A DNA stretch of 64,000 nt from Mycolicibacterium aromaticivorans JS19b1 = JCM 16368 (GTDB lineage: Bacteria; Actinomycetota; Actinomycetes; Mycobacteriales; Mycobacteriaceae): the NCBI RefSeq assembly GCF_000559085.1, contig NZ_JALN02000001.1, positions 4,526,001 to 4,590,000 on the forward strand, written 5' to 3'. The translations under genes and the position numbers were made by a program. Shown here piece by piece: positions 19,119 to 30,429 of the stretch (the stretch's first letter is position 1; every line of letters starts with the position of its first letter). The notes under the pieces are model-generated. The model was given only the letters and a program-made list of their open reading frames with translations. It was not told the origin of the DNA and did no database searches.

Positions 19119-19211
19119 ATGCATTCGGCGACCGGTTACGGCGAGGGCCACATTTTGGCCCTCATTGCCGTTGGCCCGTTGGCTGTTGCTGATGTTGCAT
19201 GTTGTCGCTGA
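19119..19211 (+). CDS. Leaderless 30-residue cysteine leader peptide before subI
   Basis: The ORF has 30 codons and ends ...VACCR-stop, with two adjacent TGT codons three and two codons before TGA. It starts 7 nt after a TAAGCT -10 box and ends 122 bp before subI. Mycobacteria are known to use leaderless short ORFs rich in terminal cysteine codons to sense charged tRNA-Cys and attenuate sulfur operons; this ORF fits by position, length and codon content. A hairpin with 7-bp arms GAGGGCC (19143-19149) and GGCCCTC (19157-19163) lies within it. Below the size usually annotated. Confidence 0.68.
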   Translation: MHSATGYGEGHILALIAVGPLAVADVACCR

Positions 19212-19333: not shown

Positions 19334-20371
19334 ATGCCCAAGATTCACCTTCCCGGTCGCCGGTGGGGTACCGCCGTCGCGTTGGCGACGACCGCAACGG
19401 TGCTCGCCGCCTGCGGAGGCGGGTCCAGCGACGTTCCCGGTGGCGGCAACCAGTCGAAGGCTGACACCACCCTCACCCTGGTGGCCTATGCCGTCCCCGA
19501 GCCCGGCTGGAGCAAGATCATCCCGGCGTTCGCCGCCACCCCGGAAGGCAAGGGCGTCGCAGTGACGACCTCCTACGGTGCCTCCGGCGACCAGTCGCGT
19601 GGTGTGGTCGACGGCAAGCCCGCCGACATCGTGAACTTCTCGGTCGAGCCTGACGTCACCCGCCTGGTCAAGGCGAACAAGGTCGCCGCCGACTGGAACA
19701 AGTCCGTCACCCAGGGCATCCCGTTCGGTTCGGTTGTGTCGCTGGTCGTCCGAAAAGGCAATCCGAAGAACATCAAGGACTGGGACGACTTGCTGCGGCC
19801 CGGTATCGAGGTGGTCACGCCGAGCCCGCTGAGTTCGGGATCGGCCAAGTGGAACCTGTTGGCGCCCTACGCCGCAAAGAGCAACGGTGGCAAGGACGCA
19901 CAGGCCGGCCTCGACTTCGTCAACAAGCTGGTGACCGAGCACGTCAAGACCCGTCCGGGGTCCGGCCGGGAGGCCACCGACGTGTTCCTGCAGGGCACCG
20001 GAGATGTGCTGATCAGTTACGAGAACGAGGCGATCAACACCGAGCGTCAAGGTAAGCCCGTCGAGCACGTCATCCCGCCGCAGACGTTCAAGATCGAGAA
20101 CCCGGTGGCGGTGGTGACCACCAGCGCCCATCTGGACAAGGCGACCGCGCTGAACAACTACCTGTTCACGCCGGAAGGCCAGAAGATCTGGGCACAGGCC
20201 GGTTTCCGTCCGGTCGATCCGTCGGTGGCCGCTGACTTCGCCACCGACTTCCCGACGCCACAGAAGCTGTGGACGATCGCCGATCTCGGTGGCTGGAGCA
20301 CGGTCGATCCGGCACTGTTCGACAAGGACAATGGCACCATTACGAAGATCTACAAGCAGGCCACTGGATGA
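19334..20371 (+). CDS. subI: Sulfate-binding lipoprotein SubI
   Basis: A 345-residue periplasmic-type binding protein with a lipoprotein signal peptide (basic start, hydrophobic core, lipobox LAAC at about 27-30). The mature part is of the sulfate/thiosulfate-binding family: YAVPEPGWSKIIPAF, TTSYGASGDQSRGV, DIVNFSVEPDV, TPSPLSSGSAKWN and FTPEGQKIWAQAGFRPVDP. It delivers sulfate to the CysTWA importer encoded next. AAAGG precedes the ATG by 6 nt. The stop overlaps the cysT start (ATGA). Probably attenuated by cysteine through the leader ORF. Confidence 0.93.
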   Translation: MPKIHLPGRRWGTAVALATTATVLAACGGGSSDVPGGGNQSKADTTLTLVAYAVPEPGWSKIIPAFAATPEGKGVAVTTSYGASGDQSRGVVDGKPADIVNFSVEPDVTRLVKANKVAADWNKSVTQGIPFGSVVSLVVRKGNPKNIKDWDDLLRPGIEVVTPSPLSSGSAKWNLLAPYAAKSNGGKDAQAGLDFVNKLVTEHVKTRPGSGREATDVFLQGTGDVLISYENEAINTERQGKPVEHVIPPQTFKIENPVAVVTTSAHLDKATALNNYLFTPEGQKIWAQAGFRPVDPSVAADFATDFPTPQKLWTIADLGGWSTVDPALFDKDNGTITKIYKQATG

Positions 20372-22080: not shown

Positions 22081-23103
22081 ATGACCAATGCCATCACCGT
22101 CACGGGCGCGAACAAGCGTTACGGCGACTTCGCTGCCCTCGACAACGTCGACTTTGTGGTGCCGGCCGGGTCGTTGACCGCACTGCTCGGCCCCAGCGGA
22201 TCGGGAAAATCGACACTGCTGCGTGCGATCGCAGGGTTGGATCAACCCGACACCGGCACCATCACGATCAACGGACGGGACGTCACCAACGTACCCCCGC
22301 AGCGCCGCGGAATCGGTTTTGTGTTCCAGCACTACGCCGCGTTCAAGCACCTGACCGTGCGGGAGAACGTCGCATTCGGATTGAAAATTCGCAAGAAGCC
22401 AAAAGCTGAGGTCAAGGCGAAGGTCGACGACCTGCTCGAGGTCGTCGGACTGGCCGGCTTCCAAACACGTTATCCCAACCAGCTTTCCGGCGGTCAGCGC
22501 CAACGGATGGCGCTCGCCCGCGCGCTGGCCGTCGATCCTGAGGTGCTCCTGCTGGACGAACCGTTCGGTGCTTTGGACGCCAAGGTCCGCGACGATCTGC
22601 GGACCTGGCTGCGGCGACTGCACGACGAGGTGCACGTCACGACGGTGCTCGTCACCCACGACCAGGCCGAAGCCCTGGACGTGGCCGACCGGATCGCGGT
22701 GCTCAACAAGGGCCGCATCGAACAAATCGGCTCACCGACCGACGTCTACGACAGCCCGGCCAATGCGTTCGTCATGTCCTTCCTCGGCACGGTGTCGTCG
22801 CTCAACGGAATCCTGGTGCGCCCGCACGACATTCGGGTTGGTCGAAATCCGGAGATGGCGATCGCGGCGGGGGATGGCACGGCCGAGTCGACCGGAGTAA
22901 CCCGTGCCACCATCGATCGGGTGGTGTATCTGGGCTTTGAAGTACGCGTCGAATTGACCAGCGCCACCAACGGGGCGCCGTTCACCGCGCAGATCACCCG
23001 AGGCGACGCCGAGGCCTTGGCGCTGAAAGAGGGCGACACCGTCTACGTGCGGGCCACCCGGGTCCCGCCGATCGCCGGCGAGGTCCAGGTCGCGGCCAGT
23101 TAG
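22081..23103 (+). CDS. cysA: Sulfate ABC transporter ATPase CysA
   Basis: A 340-residue ATPase that powers sulfate import. Walker A is GPSGSGKST (about 38-46), signature LSGGQRQR, Walker [12 protein letters not shown], and the H-loop [10 protein letters not shown]-terminal TOBE-like regulatory domain follows (about 240-340). TAGGAGAAC precedes the ATG. The stop codon overlaps that of the convergent chelatase gene (TTAG). Confidence 0.95.
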
Positions 23104-23840
23104 GCTGCGATCCGGTTCGCGACGGCGGTATCGAACCGGTCGAGCACAGTCTCGGCCACCAGCCGATGCGCGCCCAGTGGGCTGACCATGGACAGGCCTG
23201 CCGCATCGGCGATCGCGGCCACCCGGTCGGTGATGCGGCCCGGCGCGATGAACCAGGGCGCCACCACGATCCGCCGTGCGCCACTCTTGCGTAGCAGCTC
23301 GATCCCGTCCGGCACCGACGGCTGGGGCCCGGTCGCGTAGGCGACGTGCACTCCCGACCATCGGGCACCGCGGCCCAACGTGACGGCGAGCGCCGCGGTC
23401 CGGGCGTTGGCGGCGGCATGGGAGGAACCGACCGCCACCACCAGCACGCCGAGACCGCGCTCGAATTGATGAATCTGGTGCTCCGCCAAGCGTTCCCGCA
23501 TGACAGTCACAAGGCGCGGATCCTCACCGAGGGTGTCGGCCTGGATCACGTCGGCGCCGGTGTCAGCGATCATCGCCGGGATGTCGACGCGGGCGTGGTA
23601 GGCGCTCGCCAACAGCAGCGGGGTGACGACCGCCGGGCCGTCGAGTGTCCGTAGGACATCACTCAGATTCGGGGCGTGCTTCTCGCAGAACGCCACTCGC
23701 ACGTCGAGTTCGGGACGCAGCATGCGGATCCGCTCGGCCACCGCGTACGTGGTCACCGCGGAACGCGGATCGGCACTGCCGTGCGCGGTGAGGATGAGCG
23801 GTGGGCAGGAGCGAAGCGACCCGGGAGTCGACACCGTCAC
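23100..23840 (-). CDS. Sirohydrochlorin chelatase-like protein (Rv2393-like)
   Basis: A 246-residue CbiX/SirB-type chelatase that would insert iron into sirohydrochlorin to make siroheme for the neighbouring sulfite reductase. The metal-site motif [12 protein letters not shown] is near the N-terminus, and [20 protein letters not shown] carries the second histidine; a repeat of the fold follows ([28 protein letters not shown]). The GTG at 23840 overlaps the cysH stop (GTGA), so it is the third gene of the sirA operon. Confidence 0.87.
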
Positions 23841-24550
23841 GAAACGTGAAGCCCGCATTCGGTTTTCGCCAGGCCCTGCCAGCGTCCACTACGCGGGTCG
23901 GCGCCCTCGATCGGCTTGGCCGTGCACGGTGCGCAACCGATCGACGGATAGCCTTCGTCGACAAGCGGATTCACCAGCACGCCGTTGGCCTGGATGTAGG
24001 CGTCCATGTCCTCATCGGTCCACGCGGCCAGCGGGTTGATCTTCACCAGCTTGAAGCCTTCGTCGAAGCTGATCAGCGGCGCGTTGGCGCGAGTGGGCGC
24101 CTCGACCCGACGGATGCCGGTGACCCAGGCGGTGTATCCGCCCAGCGCCTTGCTCAGCGGCACCACCTTGCGCAGCCGGCAGCATTCGCCCGGATTGCTG
24201 GCGAACAGGTCCTTGCCCAGCAGCTGATCCTGCTCGGTCACACTGTGCTCGGGCGTGACGTTGACGACGTGGATGTCGTACACCGCTTCGACCGCGTCGC
24301 GGGTACCGATCGTCTCGGCGAAGTGGTAGCCCGTGTCGAGGAACAGCACGTCAACGCCGGGGCGCACCTTCGAGGCCATGTCGACCAGCACCGCGTCCTG
24401 CATGTTGGAGGCGACGACGTAGTCACCACCGAAGTGCTTGTCGGTCCAGGCCAGCAGTTCGAGCGCGCCGGCGCCGTCGAGTTCGGCCGCGCCACGTTCT
24501 GCAAGCTCCCGCAGCTCGGCCTCGGTCACTCTGTCCACCCCAATGCTCAT
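23837..24550 (-). CDS. cysH: Assimilatory adenylyl-sulfate (APS) reductase CysH
   Basis: A 237-residue APS reductase. It has the PAPS/APS-reductase fold and the two cysteine pairs that bind a [4Fe-4S] cluster in APS-specific enzymes (ECCRLRKV near 120 and GCAPCTAKP near 205). The catalytic cysteine is in the C-terminal ECGLH. The ATG at 24550 overlaps the sirA stop (ATGA). It converts APS to sulfite using thioredoxin, the step before sulfite reductase. Confidence 0.94.
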   Translation of the reverse strand: MSIGVDRVTEAELRELAERGAAELDGAGALELLAWTDKHFGGDYVVASNMQDAVLVDMASKVRPGVDVLFLDTGYHFAETIGTRDAVEAVYDIHVVNVTPEHSVTEQDQLLGKDLFASNPGECCRLRKVVPLSKALGGYTAWVTGIRRVEAPTRANAPLISFDEGFKLVKINPLAAWTDEDMDAYIQANGVLVNPLVDEGYPSIGCAPCTAKPIEGADPRSGRWQGLAKTECGLHVS

Positions 24551-26220
24551 CGCAACTCTTCTTCCTGTGCCCGTACGGCCCATTGGGCGAAACGCTCTCC
24601 GTCGCTTCTTTGTTTCACGAAGTTGCGCACCACCCGCTCGATGTAGTCGCCGAGCTCGGTGCTGGTGACCTTGTGCTGGCGCAGTTTGCGGCCGAAACCG
24701 CTGTCCAGCCCCAGGCTTCCGCCCAGGTGCACCTGGAATCCCTCGACCGAATTGCCGTCACCGTCGTCAACCATCTGGCCCTTGAAGCCGATGTCGGCGA
24801 CCTGGATGCGGGCGCACGAGTTGGGGCAGCCGTTGATGTTGACAGTGACCGGCACATCGAGCTGGGAGTTGAGATCTGCCAGGCGCTCCTCGAGCTCCGG
24901 CACCAGCACCTGGGCCCGGTTGCGGGTCTCGGCGAACGACAGCTTGCAGTACTCGATGCCGGTGCAGGCCATCAGGTTCTTGCGCCACGACGACGGCCGT
25001 GACGGCAGCCCGAGGGCGTCGAGGGCGGCGACCAGCTCGTCCAACTTGTCATCGGCGACGTCGAGAATGACGAGCTTCTGGTACGGCGTGAGGCGGATCC
25101 GGTCGGAGCCTGCGGCCTTGGCCAGGTCGGCGACCTTCGTCAGGATCGTGCCGGTCACCCGGCCCGCGATGGGGGCGACGCCGACGGCGTTGAGCCCGTT
25201 CTTCTGCTTCTGGATGCCGACGTGGTCGATCGGGTGCTTCAGCGGCTCCGGGGCGGGGCCGTCGAGCAGCTTGCGGCCCAGGTATTCGTCCTCGACGACT
25301 TGGCGGAACTTCTCGACTCCCCAGTCCTTGATGAGGAACTTCAGCCGCGCCTTGCTACGCAGTCTGCGATAGCCGTAGTCGCGGAACACCGAGGTGATGG
25401 CCTCCCACACCTCGGGGACCTCGTCGAGCGGCACCCAGGCGCCCAGGCGCTGAGCGAGCATCGGGTTGGTGGACAGTCCGCCGCCGACCCAGATGTCCAG
25501 GCCCGGCCCGTGCTCGGGATGGTTGACCCCGATGAAGGCGATGTCGTTGACCTCGTGCGCGACGTCCTGCAGGCCCGATATCGCGGTCTTGTACTTGCGC
25601 GGCAGGTTGGAGAACGACGGGTTGCCGACGTAGCGGCTGACGATCTCGTCGATCGCCCACGACGGGTCGAGAACCTCGTCCACCGATTCGCCGTTGAGCG
25701 GGCCGCCGAGCACCACACGCGGGCAGTCGCCGCACGCCTCGGTGGTCTGCAGCCCGACCGCGGCCAGCCGCTCCCAGATCTGTGGCACATCCTCGATCTG
25801 GATCCAGTGGTACTGCACGTTCTCGCGGTCGGAGATGTCGGCGGTGTCGCGGGCGAACTCGGTGGAGATCTCACCGATCGTCCGCAGCGCCGCGGCGCTC
25901 AGCGCGCCGCCGTCACAGCGCACCCGCATCATGAAGGACTTGGCCTCGAGGATCTCTGCGTTCTCGTCACCGGTCCAGGTGCCGTCGTAGCCCTGCTCAC
26001 GCTGGGTGTAGAGACCCATCCAGCGCATCCGGCCGCGCAGATCGTTCTTGTCGATGCTGTCGAAACCGGTCTTCGAATACGTGTTGATGATGCGATCGCG
26101 GACGTTGAGCGCGTCGTCGTCCTTCTTGAACTGCTCGTTCGGGTTCAGCGGCTCGCGCTGACCCAGGGCCCACTGGCCCTCACTGCGTGTCTTCGCCGCG
26201 GCCTTGGTCGGCTGGGTCAT
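24547..26220 (-). CDS. sirA: Ferredoxin-dependent sulfite reductase SirA (NirA)
   Basis: A 557-residue siroheme / [4Fe-4S] enzyme that reduces sulfite to sulfide. The cluster and siroheme cysteines are in ACTGIEYCKLSFAETR and NGCPNSCARIQVADIG near the C-terminus. Both ferrodoxin-like half domains are recognisable (GMRWMGLYTQREQGYDG; VQYHWIQIEDVPQIWERL). M. tuberculosis NirA has a Tyr-Cys cross-link near the siroheme; a Tyr in GLYTQ and Cys in CGDCPR could supply it here (inference). GAGGAG precedes the ATG but can be sequestered in a leader hairpin. First gene of sirA-cysH-chelatase. Confidence 0.94.
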   Translation of the reverse strand: MTQPTKAAAKTRSEGQWALGQREPLNPNEQFKKDDDALNVRDRIINTYSKTGFDSIDKNDLRGRMRWMGLYTQREQGYDGTWTGDENAEILEAKSFMMRVRCDGGALSAAALRTIGEISTEFARDTADISDRENVQYHWIQIEDVPQIWERLAAVGLQTTEACGDCPRVVLGGPLNGESVDEVLDPSWAIDEIVSRYVGNPSFSNLPRKYKTAISGLQDVAHEVNDIAFIGVNHPEHGPGLDIWVGGGLSTNPMLAQRLGAWVPLDEVPEVWEAITSVFRDYGYRRLRSKARLKFLIKDWGVEKFRQVVEDEYLGRKLLDGPAPEPLKHPIDHVGIQKQKNGLNAVGVAPIAGRVTGTILTKVADLAKAAGSDRIRLTPYQKLVILDVADDKLDELVAALDALGLPSRPSSWRKNLMACTGIEYCKLSFAETRNRAQVLVPELEERLADLNSQLDVPVTVNINGCPNSCARIQVADIGFKGQMVDDGDGNSVEGFQVHLGGSLGLDSGFGRKLRQHKVTSTELGDYIERVVRNFVKQRSDGERFAQWAVRAQEEELR

Positions 26221-26227
26221 GAAATGT

Positions 26228-26313
26228 GCTCCTCAATGTTCAAGGAGCTGGCGTTCGAATCGCGCGAATCCACCGGTGAGCTGTTCCGGCGGCGCAGATC
26301 CGGTCAGCCAGCT
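26228..26313 (-). promoter_or_regulatory. Candidate attenuator hairpins around the sirA ribosome binding site
   Basis: In the sirA mRNA the ribosome binding site lies in AGGAGC (26228-26233), which can pair fully with GCTCCT (26243-26248) across a 9-nt loop, hiding it. The GCT of that anti-site is also part of GCCAGCT (26246-26252), which can instead pair fully with AGCTGGC (26307-26313), 28 nt after the leader ORF. The two helices exclude each other, as in a translation-controlled switch. Confidence 0.55.
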
Positions 26314-26340
26314 GAAGTACAGGTGGGCGGGTCTACGAGG

Positions 26341-26433
26341 TCAAGCCAGACAACAGCAAGTACAGACGCGCTTGAAATCGACATGCCGCCGCACGACCAG
26401 CGCAGGACTGCGCAGGGTCTGGGGGGCTGTCAT
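26341..26433 (-). CDS. Leaderless polycysteine leader peptide before sirA
   Basis: The ORF has 30 codons and ends VCTCCCLA-stop, with four cysteines in the last seven residues. It starts with ATG at 26433, 7 nt after a CAGAAT -10 box, so it is predicted leaderless. It ends 120 bp before sirA. Polycysteine leaderless short ORFs acting as cysteine-responsive attenuators were described in mycobacteria, including upstream of this sulfite reductase operon in M. smegmatis. When cysteine is scarce, ribosomes should stall at these codons and favour sirA expression. Confidence 0.85.
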   Translation of the reverse strand: MTAPQTLRSPALVVRRHVDFKRVCTCCCLA

Positions 26434-26440
26434 GCGGGCC

Positions 26441-26446
26441 ATTCTG
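26441..26446 (-). promoter_or_regulatory. -10 box of the sirA leader ORF
   Basis: Minus-strand CAGAAT is 7 nt before the leader ATG at 26433. The same hexamer precedes the ABC transporter at 61729 at similar spacing. It places the transcription start at the ATG. Confidence 0.5.
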
Positions 26447-26526
26447 CCACGAACCGCGCCGATAGCTCTAACCGGGCCGAATTTTGACTCGTCGTGAGCG
26501 AAAGTCGGCTCTGGGACACTGAACGG

Positions 26527-27702
26527 ATGTCGGTCCGCCCCGCACCGACCGCCCTACCGGAACTCGCACTGACTCCCGGAACGGCGTTCGGCATCTACGT
26601 CCACGTGCCCTTCTGCGCCACGCGGTGCGGGTACTGCGACTTCAACACCTATACGGCCGCCGAGCTCGGCGGCGCTTCGCCCCAGGGTTGGCTGAGCGCG
26701 CTGCGCTCCGAACTGGAGTTGACCGCCGCCCTGCTGGGTGAGGTGTCCGTCGACACGGTCTTCGTCGGTGGCGGTACCCCGTCGTTGCTCGGTGGCGAGG
26801 GGTTGGCCTCGGTGCTCGACGCGGTCCGTGCCAACTTCACGATGGCCGCACAGGCGGAAGTCACCACCGAGGCCAACCCGGAGTCGACGTCGCAGGCGTT
26901 CTTCGACGAGATCCGCGCCGCGGGCTACACCCGGGTGTCGCTGGGCATGCAGTCGACCGCGCGCCGGGTGCTGGCGGTGCTGGACCGGACCCACTCGCCG
27001 GGCCGGCCGTTGCAGGCCGCGGCCGAGGCGATGGCGGCCGGCTTCGAGCACGTCAACATTGACCTCATCTACGGCACACCAGGGGAGACCGATGACGATC
27101 TCTCGCGTTCGGTCGATGCTGCGCTGAGCGCCGGCGCCGACCACATCTCGGCCTACGCCTTGGTTGTCGAGGATGGTACGGCGCTGGCTCGCCGGGTGCG
27201 CCGCGGCGACATCGAAGCCCCCGACGACGACGTCCTCGCCCACCGTTACGAATTGCTCGACCAGCGGCTGGCGGCGGCGGGGCTGAGTTGGTACGAGGTG
27301 TCCAATTGGAGCCGTCCCGGCGGTGAGTGCCGGCACAACATCGGCTACTGGAACGGCGGGCAGTGGTGGGGTGCGGGTCCCGGAGCTCACGGGTTCGTCG
27401 GCGACATCCGGTGGTGGAACGTCAAGCACCCCAACGCTTATGCCGAACTGCTGGCCGACGGGCGGCTGCCGGTGGCAGATTTCGAGCGTCTAGGTCCCGA
27501 GGCCCGCCACATCGAGAACGTGCTGTTGGGAATCAGGTTACGCACCGGCTTGCCGGTCGCCGTGCTGACGGAATCCGAACAGTCGCGCGCAGGCCGGGCG
27601 GTGGACGACGGGCTGCTGACGCGGGGCGGAGAGCGGTTGCTGCTCACCGACCGCGGCCGGCTGCTGGCCGATGCCGTGGTGCGCGACCTCCTCGACGACT
27701 GA
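26527..27702 (+). CDS. hemW: Radical SAM protein HemW (HemN-like, Rv2388c-like)
   Basis: A radical SAM protein of about 391 residues from the ATG at 26527; a GTG at 26494 would add 11 residues. The cluster motif CATRCGYC is near the N-terminus in YVHVPFCATRCGYCDFNTY, followed by FVGGGTPSLL and RVSLGMQS, NIDLIYGTPGETDDD, and the HemW C-terminal helical domain. Annotated as coproporphyrinogen oxidase HemN in many mycobacteria, but it lacks the extra N-terminal residues of true HemN and fits HemW, a heme chaperone. Divergent from the sirA operon. Confidence 0.88.
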   Translation: MSVRPAPTALPELALTPGTAFGIYVHVPFCATRCGYCDFNTYTAAELGGASPQGWLSALRSELELTAALLGEVSVDTVFVGGGTPSLLGGEGLASVLDAVRANFTMAAQAEVTTEANPESTSQAFFDEIRAAGYTRVSLGMQSTARRVLAVLDRTHSPGRPLQAAAEAMAAGFEHVNIDLIYGTPGETDDDLSRSVDAALSAGADHISAYALVVEDGTALARRVRRGDIEAPDDDVLAHRYELLDQRLAAAGLSWYEVSNWSRPGGECRHNIGYWNGGQWWGAGPGAHGFVGDIRWWNVKHPNAYAELLADGRLPVADFERLGPEARHIENVLLGIRLRTGLPVAVLTESEQSRAGRAVDDGLLTRGGERLLLTDRGRLLADAVVRDLLDD

Positions 27703-28161: not shown

Positions 28162-30429
28162 TCATCGAACGGCAATCCCGTTGTTCTGCAACGACAGCGC
28201 TGGGCTGGGCTCGACATGAAGAACCCGGGCACTGCCGATGTCGTAGAACAGGCCGATGACCTTCAGCCGGCCCTGCTCGTGCAGGTCGTGGATCAGCGGG
28301 TGACCCACCAGGGTGTCGACCTGGACGGCAACACTGACCATGCTCAGCTGGTCTGCGGTGCTGAAGCCCTGCTCGGCGGCCGATTGCGCTATCGGGTGCC
28401 GGCCCTCGTCGAAGGTATCCAGAGCCGGCTGAGCGTACTTCAGCCAGGACCGGAGGTGTTCCTCGCCGGGTCGGCGCGGCGCCCCGACGCCTTGCTCCCG
28501 CAAGGCGGCATGCATTGCGCCGCAGGAGGAATGGCCGCACACGACGATCGACGACACGTTCAACCTCCCGACCGCGAAGGCGATCGCCGCTTCCACGGAA
28601 TAGTCGTGCTGGTCGGCGGGCACGAGGTTGCCGACGTTGCGCACGGTGAACAGGTCACCCGGCCCGCTGCTGGTGATCGCGTTGGGCACGATCCGGGCGT
28701 CGGTGCACGTGATGAACAACGTCTCGGCGGTGTTGGTGTGCGCCAATTTCTCCATGTGCGGCCGGATGTGGGGAGCAGTCCTGCGGTGGTACACCTCGAC
28801 GCCGTCGAGAACGGACTGGCCTGCGGTGTCGCGCCGTTCATGGCCGATGGTGGTCAGCGGGTCCTGCCACGAACTCCACGGCACGATGCCGAGCCGCTTG
28901 TCGATCATTCCGAAGGAGCGCTGGGGCGGCCCGTCCAGCGCGCTGCTCAGTTCGACCGAGCCCACTTCCTGCACCAGAACGCTGCCGCCTGACGCCTCGT
29001 GCTGCCGCTGCCAGTCCTCGATCACCTGGTGTGCGGCGTGGTCGATGAAGTCCACCGAAATCTCCAGTGTGACGCGCACACCGGGAGGCACCGACGCCAG
29101 TGTCTTGTGCAGCTGAGGCAGCGACAGGAACGTGGCCGATCCTTCCACGGCGACGCGCCAATCGTCGTTGTCATCGTCGGCCGGCTGGGCATGGATCCTG
29201 GCGCGTGCCACTCGCCAGACCGTCAGCACGACCGCCAGCGCCAGCCCGAGCAGGACACCTTCGAGCAGGTTGAGGAAGACCACCCCGGTGATCGTCACCA
29301 GATAGACGGCGATATCGCCGGTCCGGCGTGCGGTCTTGATGTGGCTGAGCTTGACCAGCTGAATGCCGATGACGATGAGCAACCCGGCCAGCGCCGCGGT
29401 CGGAATCTGCTGGGCCAGACCGGCGAACGGCAGGGCGAAGACCAGCACCCACACGCCGTGCAACATCGCCGACGCACGGGTTTTGGCGCCCGCGGTCACA
29501 TTGGCCGAGCTGCGCACGATCACACCTGTGATCGGCAGTCCGCCGACGGCGCCCGAGACGACGTTGGCAGCGCCCTGTCCCACGAGTTCGCGGTTCAGAT
29601 TCGACCGCGGGCCGTCCTGCATGCGGTCCACGGCGACCGCGGTGAGCAAGCTCTCGACGCTGGCGATGAGTGCGACGGTGATTACGCCCGTGGCGAACGC
29701 GCCCCAGTTACCCTCCGGCAGGCCCGGTGGCTTCAAGGCGTCGAGCAGTGAACCGTTGAGCTGGATGCGCGGCACATTCATCGCGAAGAGCACCGACACC
29801 GCGCTGGCGCCGACGATCGCGACCAGCGGCCCGGGCACCTTGCGAATCTTCGCCGGCATCCAGCGCCAGCTCACCAGGATCCCGATCACCAGGAGCCCGA
29901 CGGCCAACCCGGCGTGATCGGCGGCGAGCAACTGACCGGGCAGTTCGGTGATGTTGCGCCAGGCCGAGCTCTCGGAGCTCCCGCCCAGCAGGACATGGAC
30001 CTGCTGCAGCGCGATCGTGACGCCGATGCCGGCGAGCATGGCGTGCACCACCATCGGTGAGATCGCCAGCGCTGCGCGGCCCACCCGGCTGACTCCCAGC
30101 AGTACCTGGAGGATGCCCGCGCAGACGGTGATTGCGCAGGTCACGGCCCAGCCGAATTCGGCCACCAGGCCCGCGACGATCACCGTCAACCCGGCGGCGG
30201 GACCGCTGACCTGCAGCGGCGACCCGCCCAGGGCGCCGGCAACCACACCGCCCACGATCGCCGCGATCAGCCCCGCCAGCACCGGTGCATCGGAGGCGAT
30301 GGCGATGCCAAGGGACAGCGGTAGGGCCACCAGGAAGACCACCAACGAGGCCGGTAGGTCGTAGCGCAGGAGGGTGGACATCCTGCCCGGGTCTTCAGAA
30401 CCCTCGAGTGGCGCAGTTGAACGCTGCAA
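28162..30429 (-). CDS. SulP transporter fused to beta-carbonic anhydrase (Rv3273-like)
   Basis: A 755-residue fusion. Residues about 20-430 form a SulP anion transporter (SLGIAIASDAPVLAGLIAAI; GGLPITGVIVRSSANVTAGA). A STAS-like segment spans about 445-530. The C-terminal 200 residues are a beta-carbonic anhydrase with zinc ligands in FITCTDARIVP and VVCGHSSCGAM. It should import bicarbonate or a related anion and interconvert CO2 and bicarbonate at the membrane. M. tuberculosis Rv3273 has the same architecture. The TTG start at 30429 is set by AGGAG 7 nt upstream; the ATG at 30381 has no such site. Confidence 0.88.
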   Translation of the reverse strand: MQRSTAPLEGSEDPGRMSTLLRYDLPASLVVFLVALPLSLGIAIASDAPVLAGLIAAIVGGVVAGALGGSPLQVSGPAAGLTVIVAGLVAEFGWAVTCAITVCAGILQVLLGVSRVGRAALAISPMVVHAMLAGIGVTIALQQVHVLLGGSSESSAWRNITELPGQLLAADHAGLAVGLLVIGILVSWRWMPAKIRKVPGPLVAIVGASAVSVLFAMNVPRIQLNGSLLDALKPPGLPEGNWGAFATGVITVALIASVESLLTAVAVDRMQDGPRSNLNRELVGQGAANVVSGAVGGLPITGVIVRSSANVTAGAKTRASAMLHGVWVLVFALPFAGLAQQIPTAALAGLLIVIGIQLVKLSHIKTARRTGDIAVYLVTITGVVFLNLLEGVLLGLALAVVLTVWRVARARIHAQPADDDNDDWRVAVEGSATFLSLPQLHKTLASVPPGVRVTLEISVDFIDHAAHQVIEDWQRQHEASGGSVLVQEVGSVELSSALDGPPQRSFGMIDKRLGIVPWSSWQDPLTTIGHERRDTAGQSVLDGVEVYHRRTAPHIRPHMEKLAHTNTAETLFITCTDARIVPNAITSSGPGDLFTVRNVGNLVPADQHDYSVEAAIAFAVGRLNVSSIVVCGHSSCGAMHAALREQGVGAPRRPGEEHLRSWLKYAQPALDTFDEGRHPIAQSAAEQGFSTADQLSMVSVAVQVDTLVGHPLIHDLHEQGRLKVIGLFYDIGSARVLHVEPSPALSLQNNGIAVR

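Follow-up and report, generated by a model that had tools for sequence, protein, structure and literature searches.

The window analysed here, a 64,000-nucleotide stretch of the Mycolicibacterium aromaticivorans genome, carries a short reading frame that ends in a cluster of cysteine codons and stands directly ahead of a sirA/nirA-type reductase gene. The question raised by this locus is whether the frame is a leader through which cysteine supply acts on the genes behind it and, if so, which part of it would serve as the sensor. The best explanation, to which we give a probability of about 0.75, is that the frame acts in cis as a cysteine-responsive leader for sirA, cysH and the chelatase gene, is orthologous to the Ms4527A leader and works by the mechanism drawn below. 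We regard it as very probable that the element is of the cysteine-responsive leader switch kind; the RNA switch itself, as modelled, stands at about even odds.

The leader frame and the operon behind it

On the minus strand the sequence reads TGGCAGAAT, GGCCCGC and then the ATG at 26433, from which a frame runs to the TGA at 26343-26341 and encodes the peptide MTAPQTLRSPALVVRRHVDFKRVCTCCCLA. The -10-like box CAGAAT (26446-26441) is preceded by TGG, and the leader starts 7 nt downstream of it. Judged from the sequence, this spacing fits a leaderless start, and the A of the leader ATG is the predicted transcription start. A 33-codon reading from the ORF list was set aside, as its ATG at 26442 overlaps the -10 box. 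The C-terminus VCTCCCLA holds four Cys in five residues, a run of Cys codons near the stop as in polycysteine leaderless short-ORF attenuators. The last Cys codon of the tract (26352-26350) is UGU and corresponds to the position-12 Cys common to distant leaders, counting the His of the motif as 1. The initial annotation had described a 30-codon Cys-rich ORF that starts 7 nt after CAGAAT and lies 120 nt before sirA; all of this was confirmed, the gap running from the leader stop to the sirA ATG at 26220. Its remark that most annotation pipelines would miss so small an ORF is plausible, but models for leaders of this sort do exist in NCBI's pipeline. The features referred to below are as follows.

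26441..26449, minus strand: extended -10 element TGGCAGAAT (sequence; pattern in relatives TGGCA[CG]AAT)
26341..26433, minus strand: putative leaderless short ORF, 30 codons plus TGA (sequence, -10 spacing, family match)
26365..26391, minus strand: conserved nascent segment RRHVDFKRV (low pN/pS; motif kept outside the family)
26350..26364, minus strand: cysteine tract C-T-C-C-C (sequence, conservation)
26321..26340, minus strand: C-rich stretch just 3' of the leader stop codon, 55% C and 15% G (composition; putative Rho loading)
26307..26313, minus strand: R2, AGCUGGC, predicted anti-sequestor strand (folding)
26246..26252, minus strand: R3, GCCAGCU, predicted to pair with R2, overlapping the anti-Shine-Dalgarno strand GCUCCUUGA at 26248-26240 (folding)
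26228..26236, minus strand: R4, UUGAGGAGC, containing the sirA Shine-Dalgarno AGGAG at 26233-26229 (sequence, folding)
24547..26220, minus strand: sirA/nirA-type reductase, 557 aa (NCBIfam matches under cut-off; named after the published orthologue)
23837..24583, minus strand: cysH, (P)APS reductase (NCBIfam match over cut-off)
23100..23858, minus strand: sirohydrochlorin-chelatase-like protein (72 bits, cut-off 120)

The gene order sirA-cysH-chelatase given earlier was borne out, with cysH over its cut-off and the best matches of sirA and the chelatase under theirs; for the sirA product these are ferredoxin--nitrite reductase and the NirA family. As mechanical ORFs the three genes overlap end to start, and hemW is divergent from the leader operon, from about 26494. 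The closest named SirA locus among the best 80 of 582 belongs to the MAG 'Mycobacterium sp. isolate D4_Bin_10' and is 99% identical. At the gathering threshold Rfam gave a single match in the window, a tRNA, and no leader family, and no intrinsic terminator-like sites were found in 26180-26560. Farther along, a long ORF at 28162-30429 (minus strand) resembles, by eye, a SulP-type transporter joined to a beta-carbonic anhydrase.

The window holds a second leaderless Cys-ending leader, MHSATGYGEGHILALIAVGPLAVADVACCR, at 19119-19211 on the plus strand, 7 nt after TAAGCT. It matches NF042937 (Ms4533A) with 49.5 bits against a cut-off of 31 and precedes an ORF at 19334 that, by eye, is apparently the first of a sulfate-transport operon; a 251-nt query over it found matches in 28 of 41 genomes of the genus. 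Elsewhere in the same genome (G000:C1:1936830-1936907, plus strand; L084/L091) an Ms5788A-type leader ends in RRAVDLCRVAGCCCCCCSC and precedes a DUF4395 gene. Both NF042933 and NF042937 match over cut-off in this genome. Pfam gave no match for three leader peptides.

Conservation of the leader and the position of its cysteines

The leader lies directly upstream of sirA/nirA, as does the Ms4527A leader, and scores 43.2 bits (E 2.1e-11) against the NCBIfam model NF042936 ('Ms4527A family Cys-rich leader peptide'), missing the cut-off of 45 by 1.8 bits. The 33-residue reading scores 42.9 bits, and two leaders from other sirA loci score 50.7 and 58 bits. Because 43.2 bits is below the cut-off, we term the window leader an orthologue by synteny and do not name it an NF042936 hit. 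Against NF042934 ('putative leader peptide') it reaches 19.7 bits, under the cut-off of 27, and another leader of the same genome 38 bits.

Shell 2015 (PMC4633059) shows in Fig. 7C a conserved leaderless small ORF upstream of nirA/Msmeg_4527, calls the uORF group Cys-enriched, proposes attenuation and gives 70S occupancy in M. smegmatis for the related cysA2 leader. Citing Canestrari 2020 (doi 10.1111/mmi.14498), PMC9031893 and PMC13236596 refer to translational attenuation by Cys in M. smegmatis, and PMC9094748 to a conserved set of Cys-rich regulatory sORFs. Seliverstov 2005 (PMC1262725) had predicted Cys-run leader peptides ahead of cys operons in Mycobacterium and P. acnes and ahead of cbs in B. 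longum; a term search of PMC9386245 gave nothing on such leaders. Its position and sequence make the window leader an orthologue of the uORF published for nirA/Msmeg_4527. The likeness to mycobacterial polycysteine leaderless short ORFs noticed by the initial annotation finds support in the same two properties and in the NF042936 match, under cut-off as it is.

The relatives compared were the best 80 of 582 named SirA loci, 81 with the window. Motif, -10 box and start spacing are widely kept among them: L[VT]xRRH[VI]Dxx[RL][VIT]C, TGGCA[CG]AAT and an in-frame ATG or GTG 6-7 nt behind occur together at 75 of the 81 sirA loci. Loss of the Cys codons in close relatives, named earlier as an outcome that would speak against the leader, was looked for and not borne out, with at least 3 Cys in the last 12 residues of the upstream ORF at 74 of 80 sirA loci. 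Among the 81 loci, L041, L044, L062 and L081 have no such leader; L044 is the second sirA copy of M. persicum AFPC-000227, whose other copy, L039, has one. Two loci, L047 (M. simiae) and L072, keep the Cys tract without RRHxDxKRV and offer natural tests of the nascent-segment idea.

Within RRHxDxKRV, pN is 0.067 and pS 0.495 (ratio 0.136, 68 unique cores), and third positions vary in the codons of the invariant Arg, His and Asp. The ratio is 0.77 (26 sequences) and 1.04 (29) in the N-terminal part of the leader and 0.30 in SirA (180 codons from EGQWALG; 60 of 69 sequences used). By these codon comparisons RRHxDxKRV is under peptide-level selection. The distant relatives described below suggest that the sensor includes a conserved peptide stretch in addition to the cysteines. 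In 68 mycobacterial cores Cys stands at position 8 in all 68, at 10 in 57 and at 11 in 52. The last Cys codon is UGU in all 66 cores with Cys there, against 41 of 476 SirA Cys codons; all these counts leave relatedness out of account. Alignment A1 was built on 51 of the 69 leader references, without 10 Rhodococcus/Nocardia-type loci, L067 (for which a wrong start had been taken) and the near-duplicates L004, L027, L033, L038, L040, L043 and L049. A further 6 motif-bearing loci without a picked start stand outside the 69.

The NF042934 model reaches much farther. It matched 284 of 298 genomes of the order at E<=0.01 (261 over cut-off) and 144 of 197 genomes of the class, which we take to be the Actinomycetes, at E<=0.001 (128 over cut-off); in genomes with many first-look candidates only part of these were scored. 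None of 14 control genomes matched at either threshold, and at a lax E<=10 ten of the 14 did, none over cut-off. From the ORFs downstream of 61 matches 40 were submitted, one per locus and chosen by length. A family was obtained for 27 (best match, often under cut-off) and none for 13 at the thresholds used. The families are sulfite reductases, sulfonate transport, SfnB/DszC-, DmoA- or luciferase-like monooxygenases, TauD, MetQ, O-acetylhomoserine sulfhydrylase, mercaptopyruvate sulfurtransferase/rhodanese, a dicarboxylate/glutamate-type symporter and DUF4395.

As the NF042934 profile itself includes Cys, the search was restarted from SirA in 32 genomes of the order and another 32 of the class, each set yielding 28 loci; one class genome gave two SirA loci, the second only 35% identical. 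These genomes were hand-picked to cover families and mostly profile-positive (a match somewhere in 31 of 32 and 26 of 32, respectively), so that the rate of leader presence is biased upwards and the Cys position is unbiased. The pattern [RK]x[HAYLGQ][VI]Dxx[RH] was sought in short ORFs within 900 nt upstream of sirA, Cys not being required. One leader, and never more than one, was found at 45 of 56 loci (with hardly any upstream DNA covered for L208), and three of the five profile-negative class genomes with a SirA locus had a leader with Cys at 12 (L184, L188, L193).

Outside the window's family a leader was present at 42 of 52 sirA loci. Cys stands at position 12, the assumed stall site, in 41 of these 42 leaders and at 13 in L197; there is one Cys in 30 leaders, two in 11 and three in 1. 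The position-12 codon is UGU in 32 of 41, against 14 of 271 SirA Cys codons of the same loci. Between position 12 and the stop lie 2-4 residues in 37 of 42 leaders, and by a permissive test the start codon is 6-7 nt behind A...T in 41 of 42. Strict fixity is counted against by L155 and L156, inside the window's family, with Cys at 8 and 10, not 12; the same holds for the two-Cys leaders of the Rhodococcus loci L079 and L080, in which the motif is intact. As a separate observation, AGC encodes Ser 9 in 37 of the 42 outside leaders, against 176 of 834 SirA Ser codons, which may be an RNA-level feature.

Three 900-nt control stretches per locus (opposite strand upstream, SirA coding region and its opposite strand) gave 7 matches. 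Six had Cys at 12 and apparently are leaders of other genes, and one is likely chance; the extra leader-like matches with Cys at 12 lie around sirA at L176, L177, L178, L182, L202 and L207.

What the leaders have in common, by the Cys-blind search, is the nascent segment together with a single Cys a fixed distance away. On this evidence the poly-Cys tract looks derived, and the core sensor seems to be a Cys in fixed register, preceded by the conserved nascent segment. Such peptides are evidently known to NCBI curators, given the NF042934 model; no description of the single-Cys form was found in the literature searched, most subscription journals lying outside it. The Streptomyces lividans RNA-seq reannotation (PMC8079986) reports eight leader peptides, none with the motif in the table as shown. 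Tentatively, and with somewhat less than even confidence, we consider a class-wide actinobacterial sensor, with the window leader as one of its branches, in which R[RL]H[VI]DLxRVxSAx would prime the ribosome and one position-12 Cys codon, usually UGU, would suffice for the sensing of Cys-tRNA. Poly-Cys, from which the mycobacterial elements take their name, would then be a later elaboration, and the sensor would have been kept while its RNA output was rewired, to a local Shine-Dalgarno hairpin in some lineages and to other pairings or Rho in others.

RNA folds and competing readings

Canestrari's 2020 work is said to have found that ribosomes stalled in the Cys tract block RNA structures hiding the next ribosome-binding site. 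In the window a fold of this sort, as in polycysteine attenuators, was found by prediction only: the sirA Shine-Dalgarno (SD) lies in a predicted 9-bp hairpin of GCUCCUUGA with UUGAGGAGC. From the leader stop to 20 nt into sirA, the alternative folds are predicted at -45.0 (R3:R4) versus -44.7 kcal/mol (R2:R3). As long as the SD is untranscribed, the best fold contains R2:R3, with a pair probability of 0.78-1.0. Folding that includes the ORF RNA gives P(R3:R4) of 0.58-0.97 and P(R2:R3) of 0.04-0.37, and folding that omits it gives 0.46-0.77 and 0.20-0.51, respectively.

RNA statistics were taken over 58 of the 69 leaders, without the 10 Rhodococcus/Nocardia-type loci and L067. A strong SD hairpin (duplex <= -9 kcal/mol) occurs at only 29 of the 58 loci. 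R2 and R3 motifs are present at 28 of these 29, and 27 of the 28 keep every R2:R3 pair through six R3 spellings, a count that follows nearly by construction because the R3 pattern favours pairing. The mean probability of R2 pairing within the 34 nt that precede the SD is 0.77, compared with 0.06 for shuffled tails, the native tail being the higher in 27 of 28 loci; the pre-SD P(R2:R3) exceeds 0.5 in 22 of 28 and is below 0.5 in 6. In full-length RNA the 28 loci have a mean P(R2:R3) of 0.28 and a local SD pairing of 0.85. At the other 29 loci the local hairpin is weaker, and SD pairing with the ORF end is slightly stronger, at -7.1 versus -5.9 kcal/mol (p 0.03, relatedness ignored).

At equilibrium the window SD remains nearly all paired, no matter which leader part is taken away (unpaired 0.00-0.10). 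Over the 58 mycobacterial loci mean SD accessibility hardly shifts between the whole leader (0.28), RNA from the first Cys codon (0.23) and RNA from the stop (0.30). Since the SD is not exposed at equilibrium, the switch needs co-transcriptional kinetics. Covariation is weak (12 RNAalifold pairs, 1 changed on both sides), and swapping R3 and R4 between species costs the duplex little (-12.3 own versus -11.7 swapped). Two designs were rejected: a four-strand attenuator in which the Cys tract pairs with R2 as strand 1 finds no backing, since this pairing does not exceed that of shuffles (mean z -0.36 over 58 loci, loci without R2 set to 0), and simple SD exposure by blocking the Cys tract is absent at equilibrium in the window. 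At several loci whose ORF ends CUC CCU UGA the SD opens on a cut 21 nt past the first Cys codon, not at the codon; this was not used because, among these loci, a clear gain in openness over the whole leader is seen for L020 alone.

In the mechanism as we draw it, transcription would begin at the A of the leader ATG and the ribosome would initiate leaderless. With ample Cys-tRNA it would pass the Cys tract and leave, upon which GCUCCUUGA would pair with UUGAGGAGC and hide the sirA SD. With scarce Cys-tRNA it would wait in the tract, probably aided by RRHVDFKRV in the exit tunnel, and would cover the leader RNA while R2 holds R3 and the SD is freed. The net effect would be an operon turned up when cysteine runs short. 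We infer the start site, the stalling, the switch and its direction; the ORF, the promoter-like box, the motif, the possible hairpins and the conservation can be read from the sequences.

The strongest competitor, which we nevertheless hold to be rather unlikely, keeps the same sensor with a transcriptional output. After ribosome release the C-rich RNA 3' of the stop would load Rho and end transcription before sirA, and a ribosome stalled near the stop would mask the site, as in E. coli tna. The first 40 nt after the stop are indeed C-rich and G-poor, with a C/G of 1.72 in the 58 mycobacterial leaders against 1.07 and 1.18 in later stretches and 1.09 in an upstream control, and with 1.68 in 37 leaders outside the family. 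The short distance from position 12 to the stop in 37 of the 42 outside leaders agrees with masking, and a role of Rho at mycobacterial cys leaders was put forward in 2005, as a prediction that its authors themselves graded "rather weak" (PMC1262725). Against this, the window's group has the SD hairpin with its R2:R3 alternative, translational control in M. smegmatis is cited by PMC9031893 and PMC13236596, and outside the family the C excess runs along the whole gap (1.46, 1.41; figures without an upstream control).

A finished peptide that acts in trans, or a structural small protein, would account for purifying selection at the peptide level, but the N-terminal part is nearly unconstrained by the ratios above and peptides of this type stand before a variety of sulfur genes, in the way that cis elements would; we think this very improbable. 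A chance Cys-rich frame has its short length in its favour and nothing else. Over both strands of the 64-kb window, 2 frames have at least 4 Cys in their last 8 codons and 13 have at least 3; a start 6-7 nt behind a -10-like box is found in one of the 2 and one of the 13, the leader each time. With the leader the sole frame of its sort in the window and kept at 75 of 81 sirA loci, the chance reading was rejected on conservation and uniqueness, and we give it next to no weight. The Cys-rich frame end CCCWPCCC at about 1812 (minus strand) lacks a leaderless start.

We thus retain the cysteine-responsive leader of sirA. As a locus it is ordinary and extends a published switch to another species. 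New here are the conservation of motif, -10 box and spacing, the peptide-level selection, the fixed Cys position and the two near-isoenergetic folds; the RRHVDFKRV segment, the fixed Cys position and the second leader at 19119-19211 go beyond the initial annotation. The parts worth following are the fixed-register Cys and the conserved nascent segment. If a single fixed-register Cys behind the conserved segment is ancestral, leader-peptide Cys sensing would be a class-wide device of sulfur control and no longer peculiar to the poly-Cys leaders of mycobacteria, and one system would unite attenuation by starvation with arrest peptides.

Relation to known leader systems

The nearest known system is the Ms4527A leader (NF042936), with the same position, predicted leaderless architecture, LVxRRHVDxKRVCxCCCL-type sequence and downstream gene; the window leader differs in species and in its score below the model's cut-off. 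Ms5788A (cysA2 operon; NF042933) and Ms4533A (NF042937) are likewise leaderless and Cys-ending, whereas in this genome the Ms5788A-type peptide carries RRAVDLCRV with 8 Cys, and the window's Ms4533A-type peptide is without the RHVD motif and terminates in ACCR. NF042934 peptides share an R[RL]HVDLxRVxSAxC core, many stand before sulfur genes, and 25 of the 61 matches read have one Cys; the model name carries no mechanism. As in the classical trp and his attenuators, codons for the end product lie in the leader peptide, but the window leader has no intrinsic terminator-like site and its predicted start has no 5' UTR. E. coli TnaC and other arrest peptides have conserved nascent residues at a fixed spacing from the stall codon, with possible masking of Rho. 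The window leader may resemble TnaC in conserved residues at fixed spacing from its presumed stall codon and in the possible Rho masking, whereas its candidate signal is a hungry Cys codon, at which any arrest is hypothetical.
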